From positions 1 through 64,000 of the forward strand of contig NZ_JAMOIM010000001.1 in NCBI RefSeq assembly GCF_026130545.1: a DNA stretch of 64,000 nucleotides, given 5' to 3'. Made by a program: the position numbers and the translations under genes. Numbering within the stretch: the first letter of the stretch is position 1; the number at the start of each line of letters is the position of its first letter. Positions 15,997 to 32,075 of this stretch are shown here, one piece after another. The DNA comes from Lichenifustis flavocetrariae (GTDB lineage Bacteria; Pseudomonadota; Alphaproteobacteria; Rhizobiales; Beijerinckiaceae). The notes under the pieces are model-generated. The model saw only the letters and a program-made list of their open reading frames with translations, searched no databases and was not told the origin of the DNA.

Positions 15997-16015
15997 ATCT
16001 ACAAAATCAGTAGAC
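15997..16015 (+). promoter_or_regulatory. 19-bp palindromic operator-like site, copy A
   Basis: ATCTACAAAATCAGTAGAC has exact arms TCTAC and GTAGA around seven bases. It lies 108 bases before the first SfnB-like gene. Two close relatives stand before the FMN monooxygenase at 20219 and, inverted, before the serine acetyltransferase at 28843. The recurrence in one locus suggests one regulator. Confidence 0.6.
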
Positions 16016-16123: not shown

Positions 16124-17341
16124 ATGAGTCTGATCGAGAATCCCTTCTTCGAGCGGCATCCCAACGCGCACCGGATCACTTCGGATGCCGAAGCGATTGA
16201 AATCGCGGGCGAACTCGCGGTCGATTTCGCCCGCCAGGCTAATGAGCGCGACCGTGATCGACGCTTGCCGGTCGTCGAACTCGACCGCTTTTCGGGTTCC
16301 GGCCTCTGGGGGATCACGGTGCCGAAGGCCTACGGTGGGGCTGGTGTCAGCTTCGCCACGCTCGCGAAGGTCATCGCCCTGGTGTCAGCCGCCGATCCCT
16401 CGATCGGTCAAATCCCGCAGAACCATCTGGCGGCGCTCGACGCGATCCGGGTGACGGCAAGCGAGGAGCAGAAACGTCTCTGGTTCGGCCGCGTGCTGCA
16501 GGGGTACCGGCTCGGCAATGCGTTTTCCGAGGCCAAAAGCAAGCATGTCGGAGCTTTCGAGACGACGGTGCGTCGCGACGGCGACGCGTTTGTGGTCAAT
16601 GGCGAGAAGTTTTATGCGACGGGCGCGCTCTTCGCGCACTTCATTCATATCGGCGCCGTCGACGAAGAGGGCCGCGTGCATCTTGCCATCGCGGATCGGG
16701 ATGCGCCCGGTATCACGATCAGCGACACATGGTCGGGCTTCGGGCAGCGCACGACGGCCAGCGGCAACGTCAAGATCGACCACGTGCGCGTCGGGCCCGA
16801 GGCCCTGATCCCCGCTTTCAAGGGCGGCGAGGCGCCGTCCTCGAACGGCAGCGTGTCGCAGATCATCCAGGCCGCGGTCGATCTTGGCATCGCGCAGGGA
16901 GCGATCGACGAGACCATCCGGTTCGTGCGGACCCAGTCGCGTCCCTGGATCGACAGCGGCCAGGATCACGCCCACGAGGATGTCTTCACGATTCACCAGA
17001 TCGGCGACCTCGAAGTGAAGCTGCATGCGGCCGAGGCGCTGCTCGAAATCGCCGGTCGCGCGATCGACGGCATCCTGGACCGGCCCTCTGAGGCAGCGGT
17101 GGCCGAAACCACGGTGGCGGTCGCCGAAGCCAAAGTCTTGACCACCGAAATCGCCATCCTGGCCACCAACAAGCTGCACGAACTCGCCGGCACACGCTCG
17201 GTTCTGGCGAGCCACAATCTCGACCGGCACTGGCGTAACGCCCGGACGCACACGCTGCACGATCCCGTGCGCTGGAAGTATTTTCATGTCGGGAACCACG
17301 CGCTCAACGGCATTGCGCCGCCACGCCACGCCTGGAGCTGA
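16124..17341 (+). CDS. SfnB-family (acyl-CoA dehydrogenase fold) flavin-dependent oxidoreductase, copy 1
   Basis: A 405-residue protein of the acyl-CoA dehydrogenase fold, SfnB branch, related to the DszC sulfide monooxygenase. Landmarks: GLWGITVPKAYGGAGVSFAT (N-terminal helical domain), DPSIGQIPQNHLAALDAI, the middle beta domain with NGEKFYATGALFAHFIHIGA and SGFGQRTTASGNVKIDHVRV, and the C-terminal helical bundle ending LDRHWRNARTHTLHDPVRWK. The catalytic Glu of true acyl-CoA dehydrogenases is not evident, as expected for monooxygenase members that use reduced flavin and oxygen. First gene of the sulfur module, preceded by operator copy A. Substrate unknown. Confidence 0.88.
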   Translation: MSLIENPFFERHPNAHRITSDAEAIEIAGELAVDFARQANERDRDRRLPVVELDRFSGSGLWGITVPKAYGGAGVSFATLAKVIALVSAADPSIGQIPQNHLAALDAIRVTASEEQKRLWFGRVLQGYRLGNAFSEAKSKHVGAFETTVRRDGDAFVVNGEKFYATGALFAHFIHIGAVDEEGRVHLAIADRDAPGITISDTWSGFGQRTTASGNVKIDHVRVGPEALIPAFKGGEAPSSNGSVSQIIQAAVDLGIAQGAIDETIRFVRTQSRPWIDSGQDHAHEDVFTIHQIGDLEVKLHAAEALLEIAGRAIDGILDRPSEAAVAETTVAVAEAKVLTTEIAILATNKLHELAGTRSVLASHNLDRHWRNARTHTLHDPVRWKYFHVGNHALNGIAPPRHAWS

Positions 17342-17427
17342 TGGCTCCCCGTCCTCCTCTGAGGCGCCCGATAGTCCCGTCCTGACGGCCGCTCACCGGC
17401 ATCGAACAGATCTTGGAAGACCGCACC

Positions 17428-18678
17428 ATGCCCTCCGCCCTCGCTCATCGCATCGAATCTGACGACCCCGGCTTCTCGGCGCCGCCAATCCGCAGCCGGC
17501 CTGTCCGCCGCATCCGCGACGACGCCGAGGCTCTCGCCGTGGCACGCGATGTCGCCGCCGATCTGGCCAGGGAGGCGGCGCGCCGCGACCGTGAGCGGAT
17601 TCTGCCCTACGATGAGCTTGAGCGGGTGTCCGATGCCGGTCTTCTCGCCATCACGGTGCCGAAGATCTACGGGGGCGCCGGCGTCAAGGCCGGCACCGTG
17701 GCGCGCGTGATCGCGCTTCTCGCGGGCGCCGACGGCTCGATCGGTCAAATCCCGCAGAATCACTTCTTCATGCTCGAAGCGCTGCGCCTGCAGGGCACCG
17801 AAGCGCAGAAACGGTTCTTCTACGATCGCGTCCTGGCAGGCGAACGCATCTTCAATGCCTTGTCGGAGCGCGGAACCAAGACCGCCCAGGACCACAACAC
17901 CCGGCTGACTCGAACCAGTGACGGCTTTCGGCTGAATGGCACGAAATTCTATTCGACCGGCGTGCTGTTCGCGCATTGGATCGCGGTCGTGGCCAACAAT
18001 GACGAGGGCATAAGCACTCTCGCCTTCGTGCCGCGCGAAACGGCCGGGATCACCGTGGTCGACGATTGGACCGGATTCGGTCAGAGGACGACGGGATCGG
18101 GCACCACGCATCTCGCCGACGTGCCCGTCCATCCTTTCTCGGTCATTCCCTTCAAGGCTCTCTTCGAGGTTCCGACATCGATGGGGCCTTTCGCCCAGAT
18201 CATGCACGCGGCCATCGAGCAAGGCATCGCGGAAGCTGCGCTCGCACAGGCGATCCACTTCGTGCGCCACCACACGCGCCCCTGGAAGGATAGCGGCCTC
18301 GATCGCGCAGCCGACGACCCTTACGTCGTCTCGGCGATCGGCGAGATGAAGATCCGCACCGAGGCCTCCGGCGCCCTTCTCAACCGCGCCGGCCTTTCAG
18401 TCGACACGGCCACGGACGAGCCGACGGCCGACACCGTGGCGGCGGCCTCGATCGCCGTCGCCGAGGCGAAGGTGGCCTCGACCGAAACGGCGCTGTTCGT
18501 CGCCTCGAAGCTGATCGAGCTCGCGGGATCGAGCGCCACCCTGCAGGAACACGGCCTCGACCGTTTCTGGCGCAATGCCCGTACCCATACGGTGCACGAC
18601 CCGATCCGCTGGAAATATCGGTTCATCGGCGACTATTGGCTGAACGGCATCAACCCGCCCCGTCACGGCGCGATCTGA
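17428..18678 (+). CDS. SfnB-family flavin-dependent oxidoreductase, copy 2
   Basis: A 416-residue paralogue of the preceding gene, 86 bases downstream, with the same blocks: GLLAITVPKIYGGAGVKAGT, DGSIGQIPQNHFFMLEALRL, NGTKFYSTGVLFAHWIAVVA, TGFGQRTTGSGTTHLADVPV and LDRFWRNARTHTVHDPIRWK. The two are clearly related but well diverged, so each may take a different step or substrate. ATG at 17428 has a GGAAGA ribosome site; a TTG five codons upstream is less likely. It reads on into the FMN monooxygenase gene 11 bases later. Confidence 0.88.
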   Translation: MPSALAHRIESDDPGFSAPPIRSRPVRRIRDDAEALAVARDVAADLAREAARRDRERILPYDELERVSDAGLLAITVPKIYGGAGVKAGTVARVIALLAGADGSIGQIPQNHFFMLEALRLQGTEAQKRFFYDRVLAGERIFNALSERGTKTAQDHNTRLTRTSDGFRLNGTKFYSTGVLFAHWIAVVANNDEGISTLAFVPRETAGITVVDDWTGFGQRTTGSGTTHLADVPVHPFSVIPFKALFEVPTSMGPFAQIMHAAIEQGIAEAALAQAIHFVRHHTRPWKDSGLDRAADDPYVVSAIGEMKIRTEASGALLNRAGLSVDTATDEPTADTVAAASIAVAEAKVASTETALFVASKLIELAGSSATLQEHGLDRFWRNARTHTVHDPIRWKYRFIGDYWLNGINPPRHGAI

Positions 18679-18689
18679 CGGAGAGGGTC

Positions 18690-20057
18690 TTGGCCAAGCA
18701 GATCCGCCTCAACGCCTTCGACATGAACTGCGTGGTCCATCAATCACCGGGACTCTGGCGCCACCCACGCGACCGCTCCCGGGACTACAAGAGCCTGAGG
18801 CCCTGGATCGAACTGGCTCAGACGCTCGAGCGCGGCCTGTTCGACGGGCTCTTTCTCGCCGACGTGCTCGGGGTCTACGACGTCTTCGGGGACACGGCCG
18901 ATGCTGCGCTGATCCATGCGACCCAGGTGCCGGTCAACGACCCGCTGCTTCTGGTGCCCGCGATGGCGGCCGCGACCGAGAATCTCGGCTTCGGAGTCAC
19001 GGTCACGCTCTCCTACGAGCCCCCATTTCCCTTCGCCCGGCGCATGTCGACGCTCGACCATCTGACGGATGGCCGCATCGGCTGGAACATCGTCACTGGC
19101 TATCTGAACAGCGCCGCCAAAGGCTTGGGCGAAACAGGCCAGCGCGGCCATGACGACCGTTACGCGGTCGCCGAAGACTACATGCAGGTCGTCTACAAGC
19201 TCTGGGAAGGGTCTTGGGAGAACGATGCGGTGCGGGCCGACCCGGCGAGTGGGGTCTTCACCGATCCGACGCGAGTGCACCGCATCCGCCACGACGGACC
19301 CCATTACAAGCTCGACGCCATCCATTTGTGTGAGCCGTCGCCGCAACGCACGCCCGTCCTCTACCAGGCCGGGACCTCGCCGGCCGGGCGGGGTTTTGCG
19401 GGCCGCCACGCCGAATGCGTGTTCATGTCAGGGCCCTCAAAGCAGGTGGTGGCACCGCGTGTCGCGGCGATCCGCAAGGCCGCCGTCGAGGCCGGCCGCG
19501 CGGCCTCCGATATCCTCGTCTTCACGCTCATGACCGTCATTGTCGCGGAGACTGATGAGGCAGCCGAGGCGCTTATGGCCGACTACTGCCGCTACGCCGA
19601 TCCTGTCGGAGCCCTGACGCTGATGTCGGGCTGGACCGGGGTCGATTTTTCCAGGCTCGATCCCGACCAGGTCGTCGAGCATGTCGACAACGAGGCGGGT
19701 CGCTCCGCCCTCGAAAACATCACTCGCGCCGATCCGAACCGGCGTTGGACGGTACGCGAGGTCGCCGAACATGTCTGTATCGGCGGCATCGGCCCGCTCA
19801 TCGTCGGCTCTCCGCGGACCGTGGCGGACGCGCTCGAAGCCTGGATCGACGACACCGATGTCGACGGCTTCAACCTTGCCTTCGCGGTCCGGCCCGAAAC
19901 TTTTGAGGCCGTCGTCGACCTGCTCGTGCCCGAACTGCAGAAGCGGGGACGCTATAAGCAGGCTTACGCGCCAGGCCCGTTGCGCGAAAAGCTGTTCGGT
20001 CGCCCGCGCCTTGCCGAGACCCACCCGGCCCGGGAAGTCGCTCGCTTCCGCGCGTGA
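18690..20057 (+). CDS. NtaA/SnaA/DszA-family FMN-dependent monooxygenase, copy 1
   Basis: A 455-residue bacterial-luciferase-like monooxygenase. These enzymes use FMNH2 from a separate reductase to cleave C-S or C-N bonds (DszA on sulfones, NtaA on nitrilotriacetate, YtnJ/YxeK on S-substituted cysteines). Landmarks: NAFDMNCVVHQSPGLWRHP, FDGLFLADVLGVYDV, PFARRMSTLDHLTDGRIGWN and VTGYLNSAAKGLG, then DRYAVAEDYMQVVYKLWEGS. The start is TTG at 18690 with GGAG just ahead; it directly precedes the conserved KQIRLNAFDMN. No flavin reductase lies in the window. Confidence 0.9.
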   Translation: MAKQIRLNAFDMNCVVHQSPGLWRHPRDRSRDYKSLRPWIELAQTLERGLFDGLFLADVLGVYDVFGDTADAALIHATQVPVNDPLLLVPAMAAATENLGFGVTVTLSYEPPFPFARRMSTLDHLTDGRIGWNIVTGYLNSAAKGLGETGQRGHDDRYAVAEDYMQVVYKLWEGSWENDAVRADPASGVFTDPTRVHRIRHDGPHYKLDAIHLCEPSPQRTPVLYQAGTSPAGRGFAGRHAECVFMSGPSKQVVAPRVAAIRKAAVEAGRAASDILVFTLMTVIVAETDEAAEALMADYCRYADPVGALTLMSGWTGVDFSRLDPDQVVEHVDNEAGRSALENITRADPNRRWTVREVAEHVCIGGIGPLIVGSPRTVADALEAWIDDTDVDGFNLAFAVRPETFEAVVDLLVPELQKRGRYKQAYAPGPLREKLFGRPRLAETHPAREVARFRA

Positions 20058-20106
20058 CACACCTGCGGGGACAGAGGCGAAGGTCGGCAAGGGACGACGC
20101 GAATTA

Positions 20107-20125
20107 ATCTATAATTTTTGTAGAC
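20107..20125 (+). promoter_or_regulatory. 19-bp palindromic operator-like site, copy B
   Basis: ATCTATAATTTTTGTAGAC lies in the 160-base gap before the second FMN monooxygenase, so a second promoter probably starts here. It matches copy A at both arms and matches the reverse complement of copy C at 17 of 19 positions. Confidence 0.6.
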
Positions 20126-20218
20126 AAATATCGCAGCATCGGGTTTGCTGCATGTGCTCAGTCGCCGCCGTGGCCACCCTGTTGTGCCGGGCGCATGAAA
20201 ACAATTTCGGAGTCGGGA

Positions 20219-21616
20219 ATGACGCGGCAGATGCGCTTCAATGCGTTCGACATGAACTGCGTGGGCCACCAGTCTCCTGGTCTCTGGGCTCACCCGCGCG
20301 ACAAATCCTGGCAGTATAAGGACCTCGAATACTGGACGGGCCTGGCTCAGACGCTCGAACGGGGCGTCTTCGACGGCATCTTTATTGCCGACGTCCTGGG
20401 TGTCTACGACGTCTACAAGGGAAGTGCCTATCACGCGATCCAACAGGGCGCGCAGATCCCGGTCAACGATCCTCTGCAGCTCGTCCCGGCCATGGCGGTG
20501 GTGACGAAGCATCTCGGCTTCGGCATCACGGCTTCGATCTCCTTCGAGCACCCCTATCCGTTCGCCCGGCGCATGTCGACGATCGACCATCTGACCAAGG
20601 GCCGGGTCGGCTGGAATATCGTGACGTCCTATCTCGACAGCGGCGCCCGCAACCTCGGCCAGTCCACGCAGGTCGCCCATAACGACCGCTACGATGTCGC
20701 CGACGAATATGTCGAGGTGCTCTACAAGCTCTGGGAGGGCAGCTGGGAAGAGGGGGCGGTGGTGCGCGACCGCGAGGCCCGCATCTTCGCCCATCCCGAG
20801 AAGGTGCATCAGATCGGCCACAAGGGTCGCTTCTTCGACGTGCCCGGCTACCACCTGTCGGAGCCGTCGCCGCAACGCAGCGTCGTCATCTACCAGGCGG
20901 GCGCTTCGAGCCGCGGCAAGGCCTTCGCGGCCGAACACGCGGAATGCGTCTTCGTGGCGGCGCCGAGCAAGACCATCCTGAAGGCCTATGTGGCCGACAT
21001 TCGCCGGCGCGCGGCGGCGGCCGGGCGGGACCCTCGAAAACTCTTCGTCTACACGCTGCTGACCGTCATCGTCGACGAGACCGACGCCAAGGCGCAGGCC
21101 AAGTTCGAGGACTACCAAAGCTATGTGAACTATGATGGCTCACTCGTCTTCATGTCGGGCTGGACCGGCATCGACTTCGGCCAATATGCGCCAACCGACC
21201 TCGTCCGGAAGGTCGAAACGAACGCCATCATCTCGGCCGTCGAGGCCCTGTCGGAAGGCGATCCGGACAAGAAGTGGACCGTCGAGGAACTCGCGAAGTT
21301 CGGCGGCATCGGCGGCATGGGCCCGGTCGTGGTGGGATCCGCCGCGACCGTGGCCGACGTCCTGCAGGACTGGGTCGCCGAGACCGATGTCGACGGTTTC
21401 AACCTCGCCTATGCGGTGACCCCTGAGACCTTCGAGGATGTCGTCCAGCACCTCGTACCCGAGTTGCAGAAACGCGGCGCCTATCCGCGCGCCTATGTGC
21501 CGGGCACCTTGCGCGAGAAGCTGTTCGGCGACGGCCCCTATCTGCCTGCAACACATCCAGCGGCCCGTTACCGCGATCTCGGGCGGCAGCACCGCACCGC
21601 CGAGGCCGCGGAATGA
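20219..21616 (+). CDS. NtaA/SnaA/DszA-family FMN-dependent monooxygenase, copy 2
   Basis: A 465-residue paralogue of the enzyme at 18690: NAFDMNCVGHQSPGLWAHP, FDGIFIADVLGVYDVYKGS, PFARRMSTIDHLTKGRVGWN, VTSYLDSGARNLGQ and YDVADEYVEVLYKLWEGSWE. Two ATGs are possible, 20195 and 20219; the second has GGAG about eight bases ahead and sits nearer the conserved N-terminus. Operator copy B lies about 95 bases upstream. The stop overlaps the start of the ABC ATPase gene (ATGA), so the enzyme and the importer are made together, which ties its substrate to the imported compound. Confidence 0.9.
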   Translation: MTRQMRFNAFDMNCVGHQSPGLWAHPRDKSWQYKDLEYWTGLAQTLERGVFDGIFIADVLGVYDVYKGSAYHAIQQGAQIPVNDPLQLVPAMAVVTKHLGFGITASISFEHPYPFARRMSTIDHLTKGRVGWNIVTSYLDSGARNLGQSTQVAHNDRYDVADEYVEVLYKLWEGSWEEGAVVRDREARIFAHPEKVHQIGHKGRFFDVPGYHLSEPSPQRSVVIYQAGASSRGKAFAAEHAECVFVAAPSKTILKAYVADIRRRAAAAGRDPRKLFVYTLLTVIVDETDAKAQAKFEDYQSYVNYDGSLVFMSGWTGIDFGQYAPTDLVRKVETNAIISAVEALSEGDPDKKWTVEELAKFGGIGGMGPVVVGSAATVADVLQDWVAETDVDGFNLAYAVTPETFEDVVQHLVPELQKRGAYPRAYVPGTLREKLFGDGPYLPATHPAARYRDLGRQHRTAEAAE

Positions 21617-22383
21617 GTGCGCCCATTCTCGACGTGCAGCAGGTGTCGCTCTCGTTTCGCGGCATCAAGGCGCTCACCGATCTCAGCTTCGCGGTCGAAA
21701 AGGGCGAGATCTGCGCCCTCATCGGACCGAACGGTGCGGGCAAGAGCTCGCTCCTCAACATCGTCAATGGCGTCTACCGGGCGAGTTCAGGGCGCATCAT
21801 TTTTGATGGCGCGCCCTTTGATCGGCCGACCCCCATGGCGGCCGCGCAGCGGGGCATCGGCCGCACCTTCCAGAACAATGCCCTGTTCCACCGCATGAGC
21901 GTACTCGACAACGTGTTGACGGGCCTGACGCGCCTCGGGCGCTGCAACCTGCTGGAGATCGCCTTCCGGGTCGGCCGGCACCCCGCCGAGCGCCGCGCCT
22001 TTCGTCAGCGCGCCGATGAGATCATCGGATTTCTCGAAATCGGCGCCTACCGCGACACGGTGGTGGGTGGCTTGCCCTACGGCCTGCAGAAACGGGTCGA
22101 GATGGCGCGGGCTCTCGTGGCGTCCCCAACGTTGCTGCTGCTCGACGAGCCGATTGCGGGAATGAACGCCGAAGAGAAGACGGAGCTCAGCCGGCTGATC
22201 GCGGAGGTCAATCGCGTCTTCGGCACCACAATCGTGCTGATCGAGCACGACATCGGCGTGGTGATGGGCCTCTCGCATCACGTCGTCGTGCTCGACTACG
22301 GCCGCAAGGTCGGCGACGGCACGCCCGCTGAAGTCCGGCGCAATCCGGAGGTCATCGCGGCCTATCTCGGCACCAGGCACTGA
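21613..22383 (+). CDS. ABC transporter ATP-binding protein, LivG type
   Basis: A 256-residue ATPase of the branched-chain amino acid (HAAT) importer class. Walker A GPNGAGKS (38-45), Q-loop TFQN, signature region LPYGLQKRVEMARAL (154-168, PYGLQ instead of SYGEQ), Walker B LLLLDEP (174-180) and switch His212. The C-terminal DYGRKVGDGTPAEVRRNPEVIAAYLG is the LivG hallmark. The start overlaps the monooxygenase stop by four bases. It energises the two permeases that follow, together with the LivF-type ATPase at 25811. Confidence 0.93.
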   Translation: MSAPILDVQQVSLSFRGIKALTDLSFAVEKGEICALIGPNGAGKSSLLNIVNGVYRASSGRIIFDGAPFDRPTPMAAAQRGIGRTFQNNALFHRMSVLDNVLTGLTRLGRCNLLEIAFRVGRHPAERRAFRQRADEIIGFLEIGAYRDTVVGGLPYGLQKRVEMARALVASPTLLLLDEPIAGMNAEEKTELSRLIAEVNRVFGTTIVLIEHDIGVVMGLSHHVVVLDYGRKVGDGTPAEVRRNPEVIAAYLGTRH

Positions 22384-22393
22384 GGGCGGCGCG

Positions 22394-23272
22394 ATGTTCT
22401 TTCTCAACGTCCTGACCTCCGGCCTACTGTCCGGGCTCATGTACGCCCTGGTCGCGATCGGTTTTGTGCTGATTTACAAGGCCTCGGGCGTGTTTAATTT
22501 CGCGCAAGGCTCGATGGTGCTGTTCGCGGCCCTGACTTTCGTGGTGCTGAACGAGCATGGCCTGCCCTTCTGGGCCGCATTTCCGATCACCGTCTTGGTC
22601 ATGATCGTCGGCGCGGTGCTGATTGAACGGCTCGTGCTTCGGCCGCTGGTGAACCGCAGCCCCAACACGCTGTTCATGGCGACTCTCGGCCTGAGCTTCG
22701 TCATCGAGGGCCTGGCCCAGGCCCTGTTCGGCTCCGACGTCCACCAGCTCGACCTCGGCATCGACGACATGCCGCTCGATCTCTGGGGGCTGCAGATCAG
22801 CACCTTCGACATCTTCGCCTCCGCGGTCGCGGTCGTCCTCGTCGCGGTGCTGGCCGTCCTGTTCAGCAAGACCCGGATGGGCATTTCGTTGCGCGCCGTG
22901 GCGGACGATACGCTTGCGGCGCAGTCGATCGGCATCCGTCTGCCGCGCATCTGGCAGATCGTGTGGAGCGTGTCGGGCCTCGTGGCACTCGTGGCGGGGC
23001 TCCTTTGGGGGGCACGGCAGGGCGTGCAGTTCTCGCTGTCGCTCGTGGTACTGAAAGCCATGCCGGTGCTGATCATCGGCGGCTTCTCGTCGATCCCCGG
23101 CGCCATCGTGGGCGGCCTGTTGGTCGGAGCGACCGAGAACCTCGCCGACATCTACATCGGCCCTCTCGTCCAGGGCAGCGTGTCGACATGGTTCGCCTAC
23201 ATTCTGGCCGTGGCCTTCCTGCTCATCCGACCGTCCGGCCTGTTCGGCGAAACCACGATCGCAAGGGTCTGA
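22394..23272 (+). CDS. ABC transporter permease, LivH type
   Basis: A 292-residue inner-membrane permease with about eight hydrophobic helices. Landmarks: GLLSGLMYALVAIGFVLIYK, ASGVFNFAQGSMVLFAA (the conserved NFAQG), LRAVADDTLAAQSIGI (the coupling region that docks to the ATPase) and the C-terminal KAMPVLIIGGFSSIPGAIVG. It follows the ATPase gene by ten bases. It forms the membrane channel with the LivM-type permease at 23276. The cargo cannot be told from permease sequence. Confidence 0.93.
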   Translation: MFFLNVLTSGLLSGLMYALVAIGFVLIYKASGVFNFAQGSMVLFAALTFVVLNEHGLPFWAAFPITVLVMIVGAVLIERLVLRPLVNRSPNTLFMATLGLSFVIEGLAQALFGSDVHQLDLGIDDMPLDLWGLQISTFDIFASAVAVVLVAVLAVLFSKTRMGISLRAVADDTLAAQSIGIRLPRIWQIVWSVSGLVALVAGLLWGARQGVQFSLSLVVLKAMPVLIIGGFSSIPGAIVGGLLVGATENLADIYIGPLVQGSVSTWFAYILAVAFLLIRPSGLFGETTIARV

Positions 23273-23275
23273 GCC

Positions 23276-24328
23276 ATGACGGCCATCATCTCCCAGGCCC
23301 CCGCCGATCGCCCCGTGCTAACGCCTCGCACCGTCCTGCTGGCCCTCGGTCTCGTCATCCTCGCGGTCGTGCCAGTGATCGGCAGCGACTATTGGCTGAA
23401 TTCGCTGATCGTCCCCACCCTGGTGATGGGCCTCGCGGGCGTCGGATTGAATCTTCTGACTGGCTATGCGGGCCTCGTGTCGCTCGGCTCGGCGGCCTTC
23501 ATGTCGATCGGGGCCTTCTCGACCTACAACCTGATCCTACGGGTTCCGGCCCTGCCGCTTCCCGTCGCCCTCATCGTGGCCGGCCTCATCGCAGCCTCGG
23601 CGGGTGTGCTGTTCGGGCTGCCCAGCCTCCGCATCAAGGGTTTCTATCTCAGCGCCTCGACGCTTGGCGCGCAGTTCTTCTTCGAATGGCTGTTCACCAA
23701 TTTCCATTGGTTCTCCAACGACAGCATGTCGCTGACGATCTCGGCGCCGCGCCTCGCGATCTTCGGGCACGACCTGAACTCGCCGGTGGGCCGCTACAGC
23801 CTCGTCGTCGTGACAACCCTGCTCCTGCTCTGGCTCGCCCACAATCTCATCGACAGCCGGATCGGCCGAGACTGGATGGCGATCCGCGACATGGATACGG
23901 CCGCGGCCGTCGCCGGCATTCCGGTCGGGCGCCGAAAGCTCCTGGCCTATGGCGTCAGCTCGTTTTTCTGCGGCATCGCCGGGGCGCTCTGGGCCTTCTG
24001 CTACCTCGGTACGGCCGACGCCCATGCCTTCGACCTCGACAAGTCGTTCCAGGTCCTCTTCATCGTGATCATCGGCGGATCCGCCAGCATCCTGGGCAAT
24101 TTCCTCGGTGCCGCTTTCATCGTGCTGACCCCGATCGCGCTCGACATCCTCGTGCAGGCGCTTGGCCTCGACGGCATCGTCGACCATGGCACGGTCAGCA
24201 ACATGCTCCGCATCGTCTTCGGAGCCATCATCATCCTGCTCCTGATCAAGGAGCCGGACGGATTGGCGAGCCTGATCGGCAGGCTCGCCCGGCGGCTCTC
24301 CGCCCGACCTTCCAGAGGAACGCCATGA
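23276..24328 (+). CDS. ABC transporter permease, LivM type
   Basis: A 350-residue partner permease. Landmarks: AGVGLNLLTGYAGLVSLGSA, AAFMSIGAFSTYNL, RDWMAIRDMDTAAAVAGIPV (ATPase docking helix) and FHxx-like FQVLFIVIIGGSASILGNFL. Usual LivM length. Three bases separate it from the LivH-type gene. Its TGA overlaps a seven-codon frame (ATG at 24325) with its own AGAGGA site, and a 134-base gap with a small hairpin (CGCGT-CACG-ACGCG, 24405-24418) precedes the binding-protein gene, a place where transcript levels are often adjusted. Confidence 0.93.
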   Translation: MTAIISQAPADRPVLTPRTVLLALGLVILAVVPVIGSDYWLNSLIVPTLVMGLAGVGLNLLTGYAGLVSLGSAAFMSIGAFSTYNLILRVPALPLPVALIVAGLIAASAGVLFGLPSLRIKGFYLSASTLGAQFFFEWLFTNFHWFSNDSMSLTISAPRLAIFGHDLNSPVGRYSLVVVTTLLLLWLAHNLIDSRIGRDWMAIRDMDTAAAVAGIPVGRRKLLAYGVSSFFCGIAGALWAFCYLGTADAHAFDLDKSFQVLFIVIIGGSASILGNFLGAAFIVLTPIALDILVQALGLDGIVDHGTVSNMLRIVFGAIIILLLIKEPDGLASLIGRLARRLSARPSRGTP

Positions 24329-24462
24329 CCCGCCCCATTTCGTGTTGACGCTTCTCTAGGCCCGACACCCACCTCGTTTCCTCTTTTTCGGCAAGGCAGC
24401 GGCCCGCGTCACGACGCGTGGGATCGGCACCGGCTTGCCTACTCTCAAGGACGATTCACACC

Positions 24463-25800
24463 ATGACACTGCACAAGACTCTCGCGCTCTTCGGCGCGCT
24501 CCTGCTCGGCTCGACGAGCCTCTCGGCCGCGGCGCACGCCGCCGACCATGACGGCCAACAGCTCTACCCGCTTCTGTCCTACCGCACCGGCCCCTACGCG
24601 CCTTCCGGCATCCCGCAATGGGCCGGCATCCGGGACTACCTGACCTATGTCAACGACGTTCAGGGCGGCGTCGATGGGGTCAAGGTCTTCGTCCAGGAAT
24701 GCGAGACCGCCTATACGGTGGAACGCGCCTTCGAGTGCTACGAGCGCTACAAGAACGGCTATGACGGCGCGCCCGTCGCGATCCTGATGGGGACGTCCAG
24801 CGGCTTCGATGCCGCGGCCTCCGAGAAGGTGCGGGCCGACAAGATTCCGCTCGTCACCAATGCGGGCGGCCGTGAGGACGCGGTCGACGGCAGCGTCTTC
24901 CCCTACCAGTTCCCGTTGCTGTTCGATTACTGGACCGAAGCGTCGATCGTGGTCGACTATGTGGCCAAGCAGGTCGGCGGCTATGACAAGCTGAAAGGCT
25001 TGAAGATCGCAACCCTCTACCACGATTCCGGCTACGGCCGCGACACGATCGAGCCGCTCGCGACGCTGTCCAAGAAATACGGCTTCGAGGACATCGAGAT
25101 CCCGGTGCCGCACCCTGGCGAGCAGCAGCAGGCCCAGTGGCAGCAGATCAAGCAGCAGGCCGCCGACTGGGTGTTCTTCCGCGCCTGGGGCGTGATGGCG
25201 CCCGTCGGCATCAAGACGGCGGCGCGCGTCGGTTTCCCGGCCGACCACATCATCGGTGACATCTGGACCGGGTCGGAGGAGGACGTTCGCCCGGCAGGCA
25301 CGGCCGCCAAGGGCTACCTCGCGGTTTCCGTCTTCCCCTCAGGCACTGACTTCAAGGTCAGCCAGACGCTGAAGAAAGATGTTATCGACGCCGGCAAAGG
25401 TGATCTCAAGGATCAATCGAAGTTCGGGTCCGTCTATTACAATGCTGGGCTCGTGACCGCGATCATCTATATCGAGGCGCTGCGCACAGGACACAAGCAG
25501 TTCGGCGACCGGCCCCTGACGGCCGCCGAAGGCCAGTGGGCGCTGGAACATCTCGACATCACGCCGCAGCGGATCGAGGAGCTTGGCGCGACTGGCTTGC
25601 TCAGCCCTCTCAAGGTGACAGCGAGCGACCATGAGGGCAGCCCCGCCGCCAAGATCGTGCAATGGGACGGCAAGGAGTGGCACGCCAAGACCGACTGGTT
25701 GAACGGCGATCGGGCCCTGTTCCATGACGCGATCTTCGCCAAGGCCGCCGCCTACGCCAAGGAGAAGAGCCTCCCGGCCCGTGAAGCCGCGACCAACTGA
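24463..25800 (+). CDS. ABC transporter substrate-binding protein (HAAT/LivK-like)
   Basis: A 445-residue periplasmic binding protein. ATG 24463 opens a signal peptide (MTLHKTLALFGALLLGSTSL, cut after AHA at about 26). The mature part has the Peripla_BP_6 plan: GIRDYLTYVNDVQGGVDGVK, then KIATLYHDSGYGRDTIEPLA and AARVGFPADHIIGDIW. At 420 mature residues it is longer than LivK (about 345). Relatives of this length are found with oxidative catabolic genes. The ligand is unknown; from the neighbours I infer an organosulfur compound. Confidence 0.88.
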   Translation: MTLHKTLALFGALLLGSTSLSAAAHAADHDGQQLYPLLSYRTGPYAPSGIPQWAGIRDYLTYVNDVQGGVDGVKVFVQECETAYTVERAFECYERYKNGYDGAPVAILMGTSSGFDAAASEKVRADKIPLVTNAGGREDAVDGSVFPYQFPLLFDYWTEASIVVDYVAKQVGGYDKLKGLKIATLYHDSGYGRDTIEPLATLSKKYGFEDIEIPVPHPGEQQQAQWQQIKQQAADWVFFRAWGVMAPVGIKTAARVGFPADHIIGDIWTGSEEDVRPAGTAAKGYLAVSVFPSGTDFKVSQTLKKDVIDAGKGDLKDQSKFGSVYYNAGLVTAIIYIEALRTGHKQFGDRPLTAAEGQWALEHLDITPQRIEELGATGLLSPLKVTASDHEGSPAAKIVQWDGKEWHAKTDWLNGDRALFHDAIFAKAAAYAKEKSLPAREAATN

Positions 25801-25810
25801 GGACAAGCTC

Positions 25811-26605
25811 ATGGGCGACCCCGCGCGGACCTTGCTCGCCAGCGAGCAGACATTGCTTCATGTCGATGGCGTCGAGGCGATCTATGGCGACGCCATCCTG
25901 GCTCTGCGCGGGGTGTCGTTCGGTGTTCCGAAGGGAGCGATCGTGGCTCTTCTCGGCGCCAATGGTGCCGGCAAGAGCACGACGCTGAAGGCCGTGTCCA
26001 ACCTGCTCGGCGCCTCGCGGGGCCGTATCAGCAAGGGCACGATCACCTGGCGCGGCGAGGTGACGGGGCGGCTCAGCCCGGCCGACCTCGTCCGCAAAGG
26101 GATCGTGCAGGTGCTGGAGGGGCGCCATTGCTTCCCTCAGCTTACTGTCGAGGAGAACCTGCTGTCGGGCGGGTTCGCCAGACGTCCCGGCCGGCGCGAG
26201 CTGCGGGACGATCTCGATCGCATCTATGCCCTTTTCCCGCGGCTGAAACTCCGGCGACGGGGAAAGGCCGGCCTGCTGTCGGGCGGCGAACAGCAGATGG
26301 TCGCCATCGGCCGCGCTCTGATGAGCCGGCCGACCCTGATGCTGCTCGACGAGCCCTCGATGGGTCTCGCACCGATGATCGTCGAGGAGATCTTCGAGAT
26401 CATCCGTCGCCTCAATGCGGATGACGGCGTGACCTTCCTGCTCGCCGAGCAGAACGCTCATCTGGTTCTCCGCTACGCCCACCATGGCGTCGTGCTGGAG
26501 AACGGACGAGTCGCGGCCTCGGCGCCTGCCGCCGACCTCCTGGCGCGCGACGATGTCATCGACTTCTACCTTGGCGGCAGCGCCTCGTCTCCCGCTTCCA
26601 ACTGA
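25811..26605 (+). CDS. ABC transporter ATP-binding protein, LivF type
   Basis: A 264-residue ATPase. Walker A GANGAGKS (49-56), signature LSGGEQQ (156-162), Walker B LMLLDEPS (176-183), and the LivF-typical SMGLAPMIVEEIFEIIRRLN. Second ATPase of the importer, completing the standard five-gene HAAT set. It starts ten bases after the binding-protein stop. It has a perfect signature motif, unlike the LivG-type partner. Confidence 0.93.
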   Translation: MGDPARTLLASEQTLLHVDGVEAIYGDAILALRGVSFGVPKGAIVALLGANGAGKSTTLKAVSNLLGASRGRISKGTITWRGEVTGRLSPADLVRKGIVQVLEGRHCFPQLTVEENLLSGGFARRPGRRELRDDLDRIYALFPRLKLRRRGKAGLLSGGEQQMVAIGRALMSRPTLMLLDEPSMGLAPMIVEEIFEIIRRLNADDGVTFLLAEQNAHLVLRYAHHGVVLENGRVAASAPAADLLARDDVIDFYLGGSASSPASN

Positions 26606-26630
26606 ACGACCCCGTGAGAATCGGACTGCT

Positions 26631-27848
26631 ATGACCCACATCGACCTGGCCTGGGGCGCCGGCCCCTCGGCGCGTTACGACGCCATCGCGGCGCGTTTTC
26701 GTCCTCTGTTCCACGCGTTTCGGGAGGGTGCAGCCAAGCGCGACCGCGACCGCCTGCTGCCGTTTAAGGAATTCGCGCAACTGAAGCAGGCCGGATTTGG
26801 GGCCCTGCGGGTTCCGGTGGAGTATGGCGGCACCGGGGCCTCGCTGCCGGAACTTTTCGCGCTGCTGATCGAATTGTCGGAAGCGGAATCGAACCTCACC
26901 CAGTCCTTTCGCGCTCACTTCGGCTTCACGGAAGACGTGCTGCATTCGACCGATCCTGCCCGACGCGAGCGATGGCTGGGCCGCATCGGGCGAGACGACG
27001 TCTTCGGAGGCGCCTGGAGCGAAGTGGGCGACGCCAAGCTCGCGGCCTTTTCCACCCGGGTGAGCGGCAGCGGCAACGACCTCTGGCTCGACGGCACGAA
27101 ATATTACACGACCGGCTCGCTTTTCGCGGATTGGATCGATGTCGGCGCGACCGACGCGGCGGATGAAGGCATCGGCGTGGTGGTGTCGCAGCAGGCGCCC
27201 GGCGTGCAGATCCTCGACGACTGGGACGGCATCGGCCAGACTTTGACGGCGAGCGGCACCGCGGTCTTCACGCATGTTCCTGTCGAGGCCGCCGACATTA
27301 CGAAGGCCGACACGCGCTTCGGCTATGCCCCCGCCTTCTTCCAGCTGGTACAACTCGCGACCATCGCGGGTATCGGGCGGGCTCTGGCCACGGATCTTGC
27401 CCAGGCCGTGGCAAAGCGCTCTCGCACCTACACGCATGCGGCAGCGGCGCGATCGAGCGAGGATCCGCAGGTGCTGCAGGTCGTGGGCCGCGTTCGCGGC
27501 GCCGCCTATGCGGCTGGCGCGATCGTGCTTAAGGTGGCCGAGGCGGTGCAGCGGGCAGCCGATACGCCGGGCGACCTGGACGCCTTCACGGCAGCCTTGA
27601 ATCTCGCGGAGCTCGAAAGCGCCCAGGCTCAAAGCGTCGTCATCGACCTCGTCCTCCAGGCCGCCACGACCGCCTTCGACGCGCTGGGTGCCTCCGCGGT
27701 GAAGCGAGACGCGGGTTTGGATCGGCACTGGCGCAATGCCCGCACGCTCGCCTCCCACAATCCGCGCATCTACAAGGACCGGATTGTGGGCGACTACGCG
27801 GTCAACGGCACGCCGCCGCCGCCGCAATGGCGCGTTGGCCGAAACTGA
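26631..27848 (+). CDS. Acyl-CoA-dehydrogenase-fold oxidoreductase, DszC/SfnB-related
   Basis: A 405-residue relative of the two SfnB-like proteins, but in a different branch. Landmarks: FGALRVPVEYGGTGASLPEL, FRAHFGFTEDVLHS, DGTKYYTTGSLFADWIDVGA, DDWDGIGQTLTASGTAVFTH and LDRHWRNARTLASHNPRIYK, the last shared by flavin-dependent monooxygenases. I infer FMNH2-dependent oxygenation of a sulfur- or carbon-centred substrate; no binding data can be read here. ATG at 26631 lies 25 bases past the LivF-type stop. Last gene of the plus-strand module, followed by a hairpin that separates it from the converging cysE. Confidence 0.85.
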   Translation: MTHIDLAWGAGPSARYDAIAARFRPLFHAFREGAAKRDRDRLLPFKEFAQLKQAGFGALRVPVEYGGTGASLPELFALLIELSEAESNLTQSFRAHFGFTEDVLHSTDPARRERWLGRIGRDDVFGGAWSEVGDAKLAAFSTRVSGSGNDLWLDGTKYYTTGSLFADWIDVGATDAADEGIGVVVSQQAPGVQILDDWDGIGQTLTASGTAVFTHVPVEAADITKADTRFGYAPAFFQLVQLATIAGIGRALATDLAQAVAKRSRTYTHAAAARSSEDPQVLQVVGRVRGAAYAAGAIVLKVAEAVQRAADTPGDLDAFTAALNLAELESAQAQSVVIDLVLQAATTAFDALGASAVKRDAGLDRHWRNARTLASHNPRIYKDRIVGDYAVNGTPPPPQWRVGRN

Positions 27849-27859
27849 GACTTCGCTGG

Positions 27860-27876
27860 CGCCCCAACATGGGGCG
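27860..27876. terminator. Bidirectional hairpin between convergent genes
   Basis: CGCCCC and GGGGCG pair around AACAT in the 29-base gap between the module end and the cysE stop. Position fits a shared terminator; T-tracts are poor on both sides. Confidence 0.5.
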
Positions 27877-27877
27877 T

Positions 27878-28843
27878 CTAGCGATGTTCGTTGCGCATGC
27901 GCGCCTGCACCACGCGGCTGCCGGGCGGCACAGCTTCTGTCAGCCAGACGTTGCCGCCGATCACAGAGCCTTTGCCGACGACAATCCGGCCCAGGATCGT
28001 CGCCCCGGCGTAGATCACGACGTCGTCCTCGATGATGGGATGCCGGTCATGACCTTTAAGCAGGCGCCCCTCTCCGTCGGTCTGGAAGCTCTTGGCCCCC
28101 AATGTCACGCCCTGATACAGCCGGACACGGTCGCCGATCACGGTCGTCTCGCCGATGACGACACCGGTGCCATGATCGATGAAGAAGCCGCTCCCGATCG
28201 TGGCGCCGGGATGGATGTCGATCGCGGTTTTCGAATGCGCGATCTGCGACATCACCCGCGCCAACAACTTTGCGCCGAGGAGATACAAGGCGCGCGCCAG
28301 CCGGTAGTGGAGGACCGCGATCATGCCGGGATAACTGAGCAGGATTTCCGAGTAACCCGTTGCCGCGGGATCGCCGTCGTAGGCTGCCACGACGTCGCCG
28401 ACTACGTCACCTCGGATCTCCGCCAATCGCGCCGCGAAACCTCGGACGATTGAGGCAGCCTTGAGCTGAGCCTCACCTGGCCCAAGGTGTTCTTGGTCCG
28501 GCGTGCTCAAAAGCGCGCTAAGGACTTGTTCGTGCAGAAGGATCAGAGCCTCTCTCAGCGTGATTTCGACGAAGGCCTCGACCGCATCCTGGTTCAAATC
28601 GGCCTGTCCATAATGCGTTGGAAACAAAACGGCGGACAGTTTGTCGAGCACGATCGTGACCGCTTGGGGTGAGGGCACCCGCCGCATCTGACCCTTGTGA
28701 CGAATATTATGTGTCACGTCTCGCGAGGTGCGGAGGCTGACCAGCACGTCGTCCATGCTGTCGTTCCGAGGTGTGGTGTCGCTTCCGGATCGTGGCGAGC
28801 GGAAGGGCATGACGGTGTGTGCGCCAGACATCGGGGCATCCAT
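27878..28843 (-). CDS. cysE: Serine O-acetyltransferase (EpsC/SrpH type)
   Basis: Transfers acetyl from acetyl-CoA to L-serine, giving O-acetylserine, the carbon skeleton for cysteine. The C-terminal third is a left-handed hexapeptide helix: IDIHPGATIGSGFFIDHGTG (208-227, with the catalytic Asp/His pairs) and VVIGETTVIGDRVRLYQGVT. The N-terminal helical SATase domain (about 60-170) is also present. At 321 residues it resembles the long EpsC/SrpH forms. The exact start is unsure: ATGs exist at 28843, 28831 and 28756; operator copy C lies only 11 bases before the first, which argues for a later one. Its placement suggests that released sulfur is fed to cysteine. Confidence 0.88.
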   Translation of the reverse strand: MDAPMSGAHTVMPFRSPRSGSDTTPRNDSMDDVLVSLRTSRDVTHNIRHKGQMRRVPSPQAVTIVLDKLSAVLFPTHYGQADLNQDAVEAFVEITLREALILLHEQVLSALLSTPDQEHLGPGEAQLKAASIVRGFAARLAEIRGDVVGDVVAAYDGDPAATGYSEILLSYPGMIAVLHYRLARALYLLGAKLLARVMSQIAHSKTAIDIHPGATIGSGFFIDHGTGVVIGETTVIGDRVRLYQGVTLGAKSFQTDGEGRLLKGHDRHPIIEDDVVIYAGATILGRIVVGKGSVIGGNVWLTEAVPPGSRVVQARMRNEHR

Positions 28844-28853
28844 ACCTGGTTAT

Positions 28854-28872
28854 GTCGACAAAAATTATAGAC
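28854..28872 (-). promoter_or_regulatory. 19-bp palindromic operator-like site, copy C
   Basis: Read on the minus strand, GTCTATAATTTTTGTCGAC matches copy B (20107) at 17 of 19 positions. It lies directly upstream of cysE and in the cysE direction. Confidence 0.6.
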
Positions 28873-29777
28873 TAACTGCGTCAAGACCGCCATGGTTAAT
28901 TGCGGAGCGGATCTGAACTGCGACAATCTCGAAAATGGCCGCCATGAACGCGCCCCCGTCATAGCCGCCAAAAACTCCGGCCTGCGCCGCACATTGCTTC
29001 GTGGTGTTGCGCCGATCGATTGATCGTCGGGAAGGCACGCGCAGTCGCCGGCACACTGACGCCGAAAGGCGAGGTTAAGTCAGGTCGAGCTTTAGGAGTT
29101 GTCCGCCTGAAACGAAATCTCGCTTGAACCAAAGCCCACGATCAACTTCGGCTTCGTGTCCGCATCGGCGCCTTTGGGGCGTCGGACTGAAATGGAACGT
29201 TCCGAGCCGAAATAATATTTTAAAATCGCGATAGGCGACAGGATTGTGAAGCTGACAGGCGAAGACTAAAAATTAAGCCAAATCTTTGAAAATTGATCCT
29301 GTATGAGTAAATGTTTATATTCTTCCAGTAACGTTTTAAGAGAATTGCCGTGATCGACGAATTAGGGCCGATTTCTTATTTGAGATTTCAATTTGGCAAA
29401 CATCTTCTACAAATATGTATCGCGGTCTTACCTGAGGGTGAGTTTCGCAGAGGACTTGCTGGGTTAGTCGATTTTCTAATCATAAATCTGAGTACCAATG
29501 GGAGGCGGTCGGGTGGTTGTCGAGTGATATTCTAATGGCATGATGCTTGAGCTCGATCCGCACCCCAAAGTGCCTCGGAAAAATACAATCCCATTTGAGC
29601 ATCACGTGTGTTTCCTCTCACAACTATAGGCTGTGAGTTTTCAAGCAATGCTGATGAAGCGGGGCCTGGGTTCTCGGACCGGCGTGATGATCGTGCTGTG
29701 GCAGACCTCCGTAACCCTGGCGCGGATCTAATTCATTTAAATGATCGGGCACCACAAGGCGAAGAGAAGTCGCAGAA
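28873..29777. other. Lower-GC gap with no supported gene
   Basis: More than 900 bases without a convincing frame. From about 29200 the sequence is clearly richer in A and T than the rest of the window. A 61-residue frame at 29350-29535 (LRFQFGKHLLQICIAVLPEG) has no recognisable family and unusual codons for this genome. It looks like decayed foreign DNA. Confidence 0.5.
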
Positions 29778-30740
29778 CTAAGGCGTGTTCTCCACCGCGA
29801 GCAGGTTCAGATAATCAAACCCGTCGCCGGGAAACATGAATGGTTTGCTCTCGTTTGGCGACCACATGCCGATGATCGGAAGGATCCCTCCATTCCTCAG
29901 TCCTCCGCCCGGAGGTGTCCGGCCGACGACATTGTAGAAGGAGTTTTCCAACGCCGTATGTGTCCAGCCAATGACCGCATCGCGGTTCAGCCCCCTGATG
30001 TTTCCAGCGAAAAGGTGGGGATGTAGACTTGTTTCGCTCCACTGCATTGCAAATGCAGTTGTATCATTGCCGCTCGGGTCGGCATTGAGAGAGCAGTCAC
30101 TGCGATTATAGATCCTACGTGGTTGCCCAAGCCTACCGATTTCTGACACGAGATGGTCTTGGGTCGAGTCTCTGATTTGAGCGGTCGGAAAGAAGCCGGA
30201 GAAAAACGTGACTTTCGGGGCCACCGTATGCTTGGAGTTCAGGCAGGTGTGCAAGGCTTTCAGGCCCTTGCCAGACCCGAGATTGCACCCGCGAATTTCA
30301 AGATGATCGATCCGACTTCTTTGGATGTCCTGGACAATCGCAATGAGTTTATCCAACACTGCGGGCTTGGAAAAAACCGGCCGGTTTTTCTCGTCGGTCG
30401 TGTCCTCCAGAAGCGAATCTCTCGCCGCGCTCTCGCCGCTCGCCGCTTGGCCGAGTAGATCAAGCAGATCGGAGTCGGCCGCGGCGTTGGTTCCCGGAAC
30501 GATCGGATAGGGCAACTGGTCGGGAGCGCCGTGAGTGCCGATCAAAAACGAAGATCGACCATTGCGCAGTTGATCGCGGATCTGCGTGAAAAGCGCTTCC
30601 ACGCTTCCATAAGCGAATGCAATGACATCCCTGGGCTGGATCTCGATATGCCCACTCCATGTCTCATCGCAGGAAAAAACCCTATAGTATTGGATCATAT
30701 TGTTGAAATGGCTATCAATCAATGCAACAAGATTTGGCAT
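29778..30740 (-). CDS. Orphan protein with DUF4347/caspase-like His-Gly and Cys motifs
   Basis: A 320-residue cytosolic-looking protein with no signal peptide. Two blocks stand out: FLIGTHGAPDQLPYPI with His70-Gly71, and IDHLEIRGCNLGSGKGLKAL with Cys152. Their order, the preceding hydrophobic strands and the GCN-x-GxGxG form recall DUF4347 and clan CD cysteine peptidases, where such His and Cys form the dyad. The rest, including NIRGLNRDAVIGWTHTALEN, is unknown to me. Base composition is lower in GC than neighbours, and it stands alone in a poorly coding stretch, suggesting recent transfer. The function is not established; protease or toxin-like roles are speculation. Confidence 0.6.
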   Translation of the reverse strand: MPNLVALIDSHFNNMIQYYRVFSCDETWSGHIEIQPRDVIAFAYGSVEALFTQIRDQLRNGRSSFLIGTHGAPDQLPYPIVPGTNAAADSDLLDLLGQAASGESAARDSLLEDTTDEKNRPVFSKPAVLDKLIAIVQDIQRSRIDHLEIRGCNLGSGKGLKALHTCLNSKHTVAPKVTFFSGFFPTAQIRDSTQDHLVSEIGRLGQPRRIYNRSDCSLNADPSGNDTTAFAMQWSETSLHPHLFAGNIRGLNRDAVIGWTHTALENSFYNVVGRTPPGGGLRNGGILPIIGMWSPNESKPFMFPGDGFDYLNLLAVENTP

Positions 30741-31177
30741 CTTATCGGCCCCGTATTCATGTTTGAAAAATGTACATCAATAAAACAGTCAATTCGGTTT
30801 TGGAGTCTAAGCCGGCGACCACATTAATTGCAATAATGACGCCGCGCTCTTCATGAAAGCGCCACTGCGCTTGTGCCCTCACTGCAGCGCGGCTCGCGGA
30901 AGGCTAGCCGCAAACTGTGCGAAAACCAAGTTCACCGCATCTGCTTCATACAACGCAAAAGCAACGCGTCTTCGGCGAGATATGACGTGTTGGTCCTCAG
31001 GCACGTCCACGTCGATGAGCACACATGCCCCGGAAATGAAGCAGATCGTGGGATGCATTATTCAAATCGATCCTCCGCGCCGCAAGGGATGTGTCTTCGA
31101 CCAGAAGATTTCTTAGGTTTCTGGCAGGGCTTAAGCACTGTCAGACGGCGTTCCAGTGCCGGGCCCCGAGGGGAATC
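30741..31177. other. Gap without a supported gene
   Basis: The left part is AT-rich and should hold the promoter of the orphan gene at 30740. The frames that cross the remainder have no recognisable product. Confidence 0.4.
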
Positions 31178-31894
31178 TCAGCTCCTGGCCTGTCGATCGG
31201 ATTTCGAAGCCTCATAGCGGGCCTTCGTTTCGGCATTCATCGGGTAGAGCCCTGGAAGCGGGACCCCTTTTTCAATCTCGGCGGCAATCCAGGCCTCTAT
31301 GCGTTCCTGTTCGGGCGCCTCGGTCAGCACAAGATCGAGGGAGGCTGCCGGGATCAGCACCGCGCCATCGTCGTCGGCGAGGATGATGTCGTCCGGAAAT
31401 ACCGCCACCCCGCCGCAGGCGACGGGCTCCTGCCAGCCCACGAAAGTCAGGCCGGCCACAGAGGGTGGGGCGGCTGTGCCCCGGCACCAGACCGGGAGGC
31501 CCGTGGCCAGTACCCCGGCGACATCGCGCACGACCCCATCGCTGACCAGCGCCGCAACCCCGCGTTTCATCATGCGGGCGCATAAAATGTCGCCGAAGAT
31601 GCCGGCGTCCGTCACACCCATTGCGTCGACCACAGCGATCACGCCGTTAGGCATGGCTTCGATGGCGGCGCGCGTGGAGATCGGCGACGCCCAACTGGCT
31701 GGTGTCGCAAGGTCTTCGCGCGCCGGCACGAAACGGAGCGTGAAGGCGCGACCGGCCACGCGTGGCTGACCGGCCCGCAAGGGCATTGCGCCGCGCAGCC
31801 AGACGTTCCGCAGGCCTTTTTTCAGAAGAACCGTCGTGACGGTCGCGGTGGACACACTTTTCAGGATGTCGATTGCTGTCGTTTCGAGCGCCAT
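31178..31894 (-). CDS. RraA-like/HMG-aldolase-family protein
   Basis: A 238-residue protein of the RraA-like fold. Key blocks: NGVIAVVDAMGVTDAGIFGD (83-102), CARMMKRGVAALVSDGVVRD with the D-G-x-x-R-D motif (119-124) that binds metal and pyruvate-like substrates in 4-hydroxy-4-methyl-2-oxoglutarate aldolases, and VFPDDIILADDDGAVLIPAA. Proteins longer than RraA (160 residues) with this motif are usually aldolases or decarboxylases of oxo acids rather than RNase E inhibitors. ATG at 31894 was preferred. No catabolic operon surrounds it, so the substrate is open. Confidence 0.85.
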   Translation of the reverse strand: MALETTAIDILKSVSTATVTTVLLKKGLRNVWLRGAMPLRAGQPRVAGRAFTLRFVPAREDLATPASWASPISTRAAIEAMPNGVIAVVDAMGVTDAGIFGDILCARMMKRGVAALVSDGVVRDVAGVLATGLPVWCRGTAAPPSVAGLTFVGWQEPVACGGVAVFPDDIILADDDGAVLIPAASLDLVLTEAPEQERIEAWIAAEIEKGVPLPGLYPMNAETKARYEASKSDRQARS

Positions 31895-32075
31895 GGCGTG
31901 TCCCGCTTGTCCGATCGTGTCAGGCGATCGCACCCGCATCTGCAGACGGGCCGATCTCGGATCGAGTTTCGTCCGGATGGGACGCCATGGCGATCAACTT
32001 TTGAGAAACCCGGCTCGTTTCCGCAATCGTCCGCATGTGGCGAGGTTTGCCTGGCGGGACGCATTCCGGCGCTCC

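Follow-up and report, generated by a model that had tools for sequence, protein, structure and literature searches.

The Pseudomonas sfn/msu system and the dimethyl sulfide route of Acinetobacter baylyi ADP1 are among the described systems nearest to the gene cluster considered here, which lies at positions 16124–27848 of the first 64,000 nucleotides (the window, meaning the whole stretch analysed) of contig NZ_JAMOIM010000001.1 of Lichenifustis flavocetrariae. A 2021 paper (PMC8234197) notes, in the passages concerned, that predicted ABC transporters separate sfnAB in the Pseudomonas putida sfn operon, and that dimethylsulfone transporters are yet to be characterised. For A. baylyi, whose route comprises Dms1-3, MsuD, MsuC, SsuD and MsuE, passages of a 2026 paper (PMC13352529) describe the conversion of dimethyl sulfide to dimethylsulfone by group D enzymes, cleavage of the latter by a group C enzyme and formation of sulfite by SsuD, with one reductase feeding all of these enzymes. 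According to the same passages, six tested genes were up 405- to 3835-fold on dimethyl sulfide relative to sulfate, while dimethyl sulfide itself was oxidised by no tested group C enzyme.

Our conclusion from sequence comparison is that the window cluster is probably a locus for scavenging organosulfur compounds during sulfate starvation, arranged as two co-regulated units, sfnB1-sfnB2-llm1 and llm2-livGHM-periplasmic binding protein-livF-sfnB3. The enzyme classes are known; what is new is the importer, a Liv-type subfamily that its gene neighbourhoods tie to sulfur scavenging and that makes the cluster a candidate uptake route for sulfones.

Gene content and conserved neighbourhood

All genes of the cluster lie on the + strand in the same direction. 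The features are as follows.

15998–16014: operator-like palindrome TCTACAAAATCAGTAGA, exact TCTA-N9-TAGA, upstream of sfnB1
16124–17341, + strand: sfnB1, SfnB-family group D flavin monooxygenase (TIGR04022, 610.2 bits, above the cut-off of 430.9)
17413–18678, + strand: sfnB2, SfnB-family group D flavin monooxygenase (TIGR04022, 591.0 bits, above 430.9)
18690–20057, + strand: llm1, NtaA/DmoA-family FMNH2-dependent monooxygenase (TIGR03860, 533.3 bits, above the cut-off of 279.7)
20108–20124: operator-like palindrome TCTATAATTTTTGTAGA, exact TCTA-N9-TAGA, upstream of llm2
20195–21616, + strand: llm2, NtaA/DmoA-family monooxygenase (TIGR03860, 553.4 bits, above 279.7)
21613–22383, + strand: livG-type ATPase (PF00005 and PF12399)
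22394–23272, + strand: livH-type permease (PF02653)
23276–24328, + strand: livM-type permease (PF02653)
24463–25800, + strand: periplasmic binding protein, Peripla_BP_6 (PF13458)
25811–26605, + strand: livF-type ATPase (PF00005), within open reading frame (ORF) 25724–26605, its start placed after the binding-protein stop
26631–27848, + strand: sfnB3, divergent group D flavin monooxygenase (TIGR04022, 274.7 bits, below 430.9)
27878–28843, − strand: serine acetyltransferase-type gene (PF00132, hexapeptide repeat), a convergent neighbour judged to lie outside the system

The internal starts of llm1, the binding protein, livF and sfnB3 were chosen from ORF overlaps, and that of llm1, a TTG with GGAGAGG upstream, was picked by eye. 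With these starts the end of llm2 runs 4 bp into livG and the other gaps are short, the longest being the 137 bp before llm2. The profile scores bear out a first-pass annotation of this DNA, which had named two SfnB-like proteins, a third related flavoenzyme (the one that falls below the SfnB cut-off) and two NtaA/SnaA/DszA-type monooxygenases. SfnB1 and SfnB2 are 49% identical, LLM1 and LLM2 56%, and the best PDB match of both LLMs is DmoA (6ak1), their closest solved relative. DmoA converts dimethyl sulfide to methanethiol and formaldehyde.

The complete LivG/H/M/K/F-type importer named in that annotation is also present: its five genes are open and encode the Pfam domains expected of them, and its make-up of two ATPases, a pair of BPD_transp_2 permeases and a Peripla_BP_6 protein is that of a Liv-type (HAAT) importer. 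The four subunits for which an NCBIfam branched-chain LIV equivalog exists miss its cut-off (LivG 222.3 against 362, LivH 75.6 against 379, LivM 92.3 against 366 and LivF 214.6 against 441 bits). The binding protein is best matched among structures by 4ru0 (55% identity, TM-score 0.91/0.97) and next by the valine-bound 3lkb, in a fold family that includes aromatic-acid binders, and the ligand is not distinguishable from these fold matches.

These data bear on the alternative of a sulfur-containing amino acid, or a derivative of cysteine or methionine, as the imported compound, with the enzymes acting as in YtnJ/CmoJ/YxeK salvage. We consider this unlikely: llm2 matches DmoA at 553.4 bits and YtnJ at 218.3, so the cysteine analogy with YtnJ and YxeK that had been drawn at first pass is weaker than that with DmoA, and the amino-acid equivalog cut-offs for LivG, LivH, LivM and LivF are missed, even though Liv-type proteins often bind amino acids and 3lkb holds valine. 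Salvage routes of the YtnJ/CmoJ/YxeK type include an N-acetyltransferase/deacetylase pair, and no such pair is found among the scanned ORFs; MetNIQ-type importers, which would suit this alternative, lie nearby in some relatives.

That the genes are grouped beyond chance is evident from their relatives. Searching named genomes once with the binding protein as query gave 34 named loci, whose neighbours were counted within the fetched flanks. Some LLM, SfnG or SfnB gene is present in 29 of the 34, spanning Rhizobium, Mesorhizobium, Shinella, Aureimonas, Paracoccus, Methylocapsa, Pararobbsia and others; those without include two from Acidisoma, one from Shinella and one truncated contig. An llm2 orthologue (at least 64% identity) occurs in 26/34, and a sfnB3 homologue in 24/34, all 24 also having llm2.

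Binding-protein matches at E ≤ 1e-90 were found in 73 of 397 genomes drawn from the order and 35 of 398 from the phylum, many of them of a non-sulfur sister kind. The presence of LLM, SfnG, MsuE or SfnB genes within 8 kb, again counted inside the fetched flanks, follows identity to the window binding protein: 23/26 loci at 60% or above, 40/45 at 49–59%, 12/21 at 43–48% and 0/42 below 43%, with 0/40 among the control Liv operons (L102–L141). The association recurs across Alpha- and Betaproteobacteria. Since the binding protein is found in none of five same-genus genomes (E ≤ 1e-60), the locus looks accessory.

Other sulfur importers (TauA, MetNIQ and SsuA family) flank the cluster in some relatives. 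We also observed a recurring FAD-NAD(P)-binding protein (PF13454) at L142:6903-8411 and 12 related loci (e.g. L073:655-2082), with a count of 12 among 69 sulfur loci; a distant relative of it (31%) adjoins ssuD in this genome. A possible azole peptide cluster adjoins the operon on a Rhizobium jaguaris plasmid (L055:16872-24253), with three YcaO-like genes, one gene of the SagB/ThcOx family and a TOMM leader-binding gene.

The binding-protein clade and the origin of the importer

A tree of 122 binding proteins, which includes 30 of the 42 most distant controls and leaves out duplicate contigs, was built by a quick method with SH-aLRT support and no bootstrap; several control branches are long. 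A branch with an SH-aLRT of 99 sets apart 85 rows, 75 of which are labelled with LLM, SfnG/MsuE or SfnB nearby, compared with 0/37 of the rows outside it. The llm2 orthologues likewise form a clade (43 rows, support 99), 34 of them scoring as adjacent to livG under a strict rule, and the sfnB3 homologues form a single clade of 40 rows (support 100) on a long stem, to which a long-branch warning applies. As a mark of the sfnB3 clade we tried the loss of an Asn that presumably has a role in DszC, and rejected it: the residue is N in 26/40 and its loss is not clade-wide, the window sfnB3 having G.

The 85-row clade splits into a 19-row subclade mostly with SfnG/MsuE and a 66-row subclade mostly with a DmoA-like LLM. 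An example of the former is a cluster in Rhizobium bangladeshense, where SfnG (608.3 bits, cut-off 382.95), MsuE (238.9, cut-off 212.5) and SfnB (604.3, cut-off 430.9) surround the same importer, and the corresponding slot in Eleftheria terrae is annotated as sfnG. The SfnG-type cluster is also held by 6 of the 10 order-scan genomes with the LLM type, and by one further genome (G031). Given that the two types occur in the same genomes, they probably serve different substrates. This argues against a special case of our interpretation, namely that the imported compound is dimethylsulfone itself and the window cluster redundant with the SfnG version. That sister importers adjoin SfnG would fit such a case, but the two window LLMs score far below the SfnG (TIGR04021) cut-off, at 74.2 and 66.0 bits, and we regard it as quite unlikely.

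Outside the clade, 41 of 49 loci have a full-length AMP-dependent (CoA) ligase directly upstream of livG; no clade locus has one, and the slot is there usually filled by a monooxygenase. A short ligase-like ORF is kept at livG in seven non-duplicate clade loci, including that of the close relative Methylocapsa sp. S129. Against the AMP-binding cut-off of 29.9, three of four such ORFs pass (46.2, 31.4 and 50.0) and one lies just below (25.0); a similar ORF in Eleftheria scores 25.2 bits. The short ORFs, at L021:6068-7147, L028:6143-7201, L037, L072, L074, L075 and L077, look like decaying CoA-ligase genes.

Two residues of the binding protein, numbered from the ATG at 24463, follow the same division. 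Position 240 is Arg in 85/85 clade members and Trp in 49/49 controls, and position 195 is Thr or Ser in 85/85 (Thr in the window protein) and Pro in 49/49. The nine unlabelled loci were assigned to the clade by the tree, independently of these residues. In a model of the binding protein (pLDDT 92) a strand ends at residue 240 and a helix follows directly; cleft residues of this fold are found at such positions, and we infer that Arg240 may touch the ligand.

We tentatively suggest, with somewhat less assurance than we attach to the scavenging function, that importers with Arg240 and Thr/Ser195 form a distinct Liv-type subfamily specialised for sulfones and other small, oxidised organosulfur compounds. 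This subfamily may have arisen from a carboxylate importer coupled to a CoA ligase, by swapping the ligase for an FMNH2 monooxygenase, and it may represent a missing sulfone uptake route in soil- and plant-associated bacteria. The CoA ligases beside relatives outside the clade, and the aromatic-acid binders in the fold family, could also be taken to mean that an ordinary branched-chain or aromatic-acid importer happens to lie beside sulfur genes. We find that very unlikely, given that the sulfur-gene association recurs across two classes of Proteobacteria, that full ligases are absent from the clade loci and that Arg240 is a fixed change.

A candidate operator shared with ssuD

Only two exact copies of TCTA-N9-TAGA are present in the window, one preceding sfnB1 and the other llm2, against a shuffled mean of 0.03. 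The 7.5-Mb genome as a whole has four copies of a tighter form of the palindrome: those before sfnB1, llm2 and ssuD, and one with no clear target. The ssuD gene (TIGR03565, 615.8 bits, cut-off 518.2) has it 91 bp upstream, and this site was not used in drawing up the tighter pattern, which was done after the two window sites and those of relatives had been seen. In relatives, the palindrome precedes 13/40 unique llm2-orthologue upstream regions (shuffled mean 0.09), 3/14 of MsuE, 1/19 of SfnG, 0/71 of clade livG and 0/43 of control livG. Its TA-N9-TA core, we presume, fits a LysR-type box. A broad scan with the tighter form gave matches in 3 of 297 genomes, the pattern being too strict to help.

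Because ssuD often follows another gene closely, 20 of 29 other SsuD loci were examined as far as 8 kb upstream. Seven of these 20 relatives have orthologues of sfnB1 (74–78%) and sfnB2 (63–73%) directly preceding ssuD. The distance from the end of sfnB2 to ssuD is 38–202 bp in six of them; in the seventh (L191, G499:C3:268906-276906), an LLM lies between sfnB2 and ssuD and ends 66 bp before the latter, an arrangement that would be a one-operon version of the route proposed below. The palindrome is found upstream in 4 of the 7 sfnB-ssuD loci and in 0 of the 13 others (shuffled mean 0.1 of 20), and therefore seems to follow sfnB-type rather than Ssu-type operons. We propose it as a candidate operator that would join the cluster to ssuD. 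Control of the SfnR type, through a sigma-54 promoter, was considered and rejected: the motif is present in 0/44 llm2, 0/16 SfnG, 0/14 MsuE and 0/43 control upstream regions.

Proposed route and comparison with known systems

In the route that we propose, the Liv-type importer would take up a small organosulfur molecule. This is most likely in oxidised form, for example a sulfone or sulfoxide, whose oxygens the fixed Arg240 may hold. The SfnB-type enzymes would add oxygen to sulfur, with SfnB1 and SfnB2 as S-oxygenases and SfnB3 as a late S-oxygenase, and LLM1 and LLM2 would cleave the C–S bond, these being the roles that family and position suggest. By analogy with the dimethyl sulfide/dimethylsulfone route, the product would be a sulfinate or sulfonate, from which SsuD, encoded elsewhere behind the same palindrome, would release sulfite. 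FMNH2 would be supplied by a reductase encoded elsewhere, either among the 14 FMN_red family matches in this genome or from another family.

Several observations weigh against this account. Ten clade rows, from nine loci, have no LLM, SfnG or SfnB in the fetched flanks (Acidisoma L028 and L037; Shinella L040; L077, L092 and L095; and L036, L072 and L073, in which the contig or flank is short). The palindrome is present before only the 13 of 40 llm2 regions given above, is found in 0 of the 29 other SsuD loci (within 400 bp, and elsewhere in these loci of ∼4.2 kb), and in the four sfnB-ssuD operons that have it lies 0.7–0.8 kb before sfnB1 rather than at its start. One MsuE query against this genome gave nothing at E ≤ 1e-3. 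Finally, the identity of llm2 to DmoA (52%) is hardly higher than that to the alkane monooxygenase LadA (50%). This last point, and the inclusion of NtaA and EmoA in the family, might suggest that the enzymes serve carbon or nitrogen catabolism, by alkane oxidation (LadA-like) or C–N cleavage (NtaA/EmoA-like), but the SfnB partners, the SfnG/MsuE sister clade, the palindrome common to ssuD and the much weaker matches to NtaA and EmoA make such a role highly improbable. Organosulfur import and oxidation, as put forward at first pass, draws support from the conserved neighbourhoods, from that sister clade and from the operator-like site, all of which point to it by sequence.

The link to the serine acetyltransferase, through which the system had been thought to feed cysteine synthesis, did not survive. 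The gene at 27878–28843 has the hexapeptide repeat as its only Pfam match, its name being given by likeness, and we rejected it as a member of the system: a homologue lies near 1 of the 34 named loci (L048, 39%) and near 1 of the 80 loci L062–L141 (L081, 53%), a set that includes control operons and two repeats, so the adjacency is not conserved. Homologues are present in 4 of the 5 same-genus genomes (E ≤ 1e-30), none of these 5 having the binding protein at E ≤ 1e-60, and the neighbourhood is most likely a coincidence. Window positions 28001–32000 have lower GC (0.553 and 0.581 in 2-kb steps) than the ∼0.64 around them, and the minus-strand ORF 29778–30740 within this stretch matched no Pfam family. 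A terC RNA motif lies at 4525–4588 on the minus strand (Rfam RF03067, 50.2 bits).

Among the open-licence PMC matches listed, we found no publication testing this importer. The title of 4ru0, a putative branched-chain amino-acid binding protein from the Pseudomonas fluorescens group, gives no ligand or function, and the best 20 of 29 literature matches hold nothing on the structure code.

Like the Pseudomonas sfn/msu system (SfnG, MsuC, MsuD, MsuE/SfnF; sfnAB), the window cluster combines group C and group D two-component flavin monooxygenases. It differs in that its LLMs are of the NtaA/DmoA type rather than SfnG, in having no MsuE, and in showing no sigma-54-type promoter motif in the upstream regions scanned. 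The importer had at first been called unusual, which holds, although it is not unique, being part of a widespread subfamily: ABC import for the sfn route has a precedent in the P. putida transporters, whose type is not named in the passage that mentions them (PMC8234197), and here the importer is placed in a defined Liv-type clade, the dedicated subfamily being what our sequence comparisons would add. According to a passage of PMC13352529, DmoA has a reductase, DmoB, beside it, whereas the cluster has none, and the likeness of llm2 to DmoA is one of sequence.

The enzyme classes are those of A. baylyi, and we read the window as the logic of that route with an importer added and another substrate. 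The passages on that route name SsuABC as the only importer, and the text of the paper holds neither "branched-chain" nor "ABC transporter" (PMC13352529), whereas the cluster has a Liv-type importer; its own enzymes are assigned by family only. HAAT importers that adjoin CoA ligases have the same five components as ours, but the clade of the cluster has a monooxygenase in the ligase slot, a ligase remnant or none, and Arg240 in place of Trp. This suggests that such an importer may change its trade by swapping the adjacent enzyme. Together with its SfnG-linked sister, the cluster defines an importer family with one candidate specificity residue, which a candidate operator would join to ssuD.

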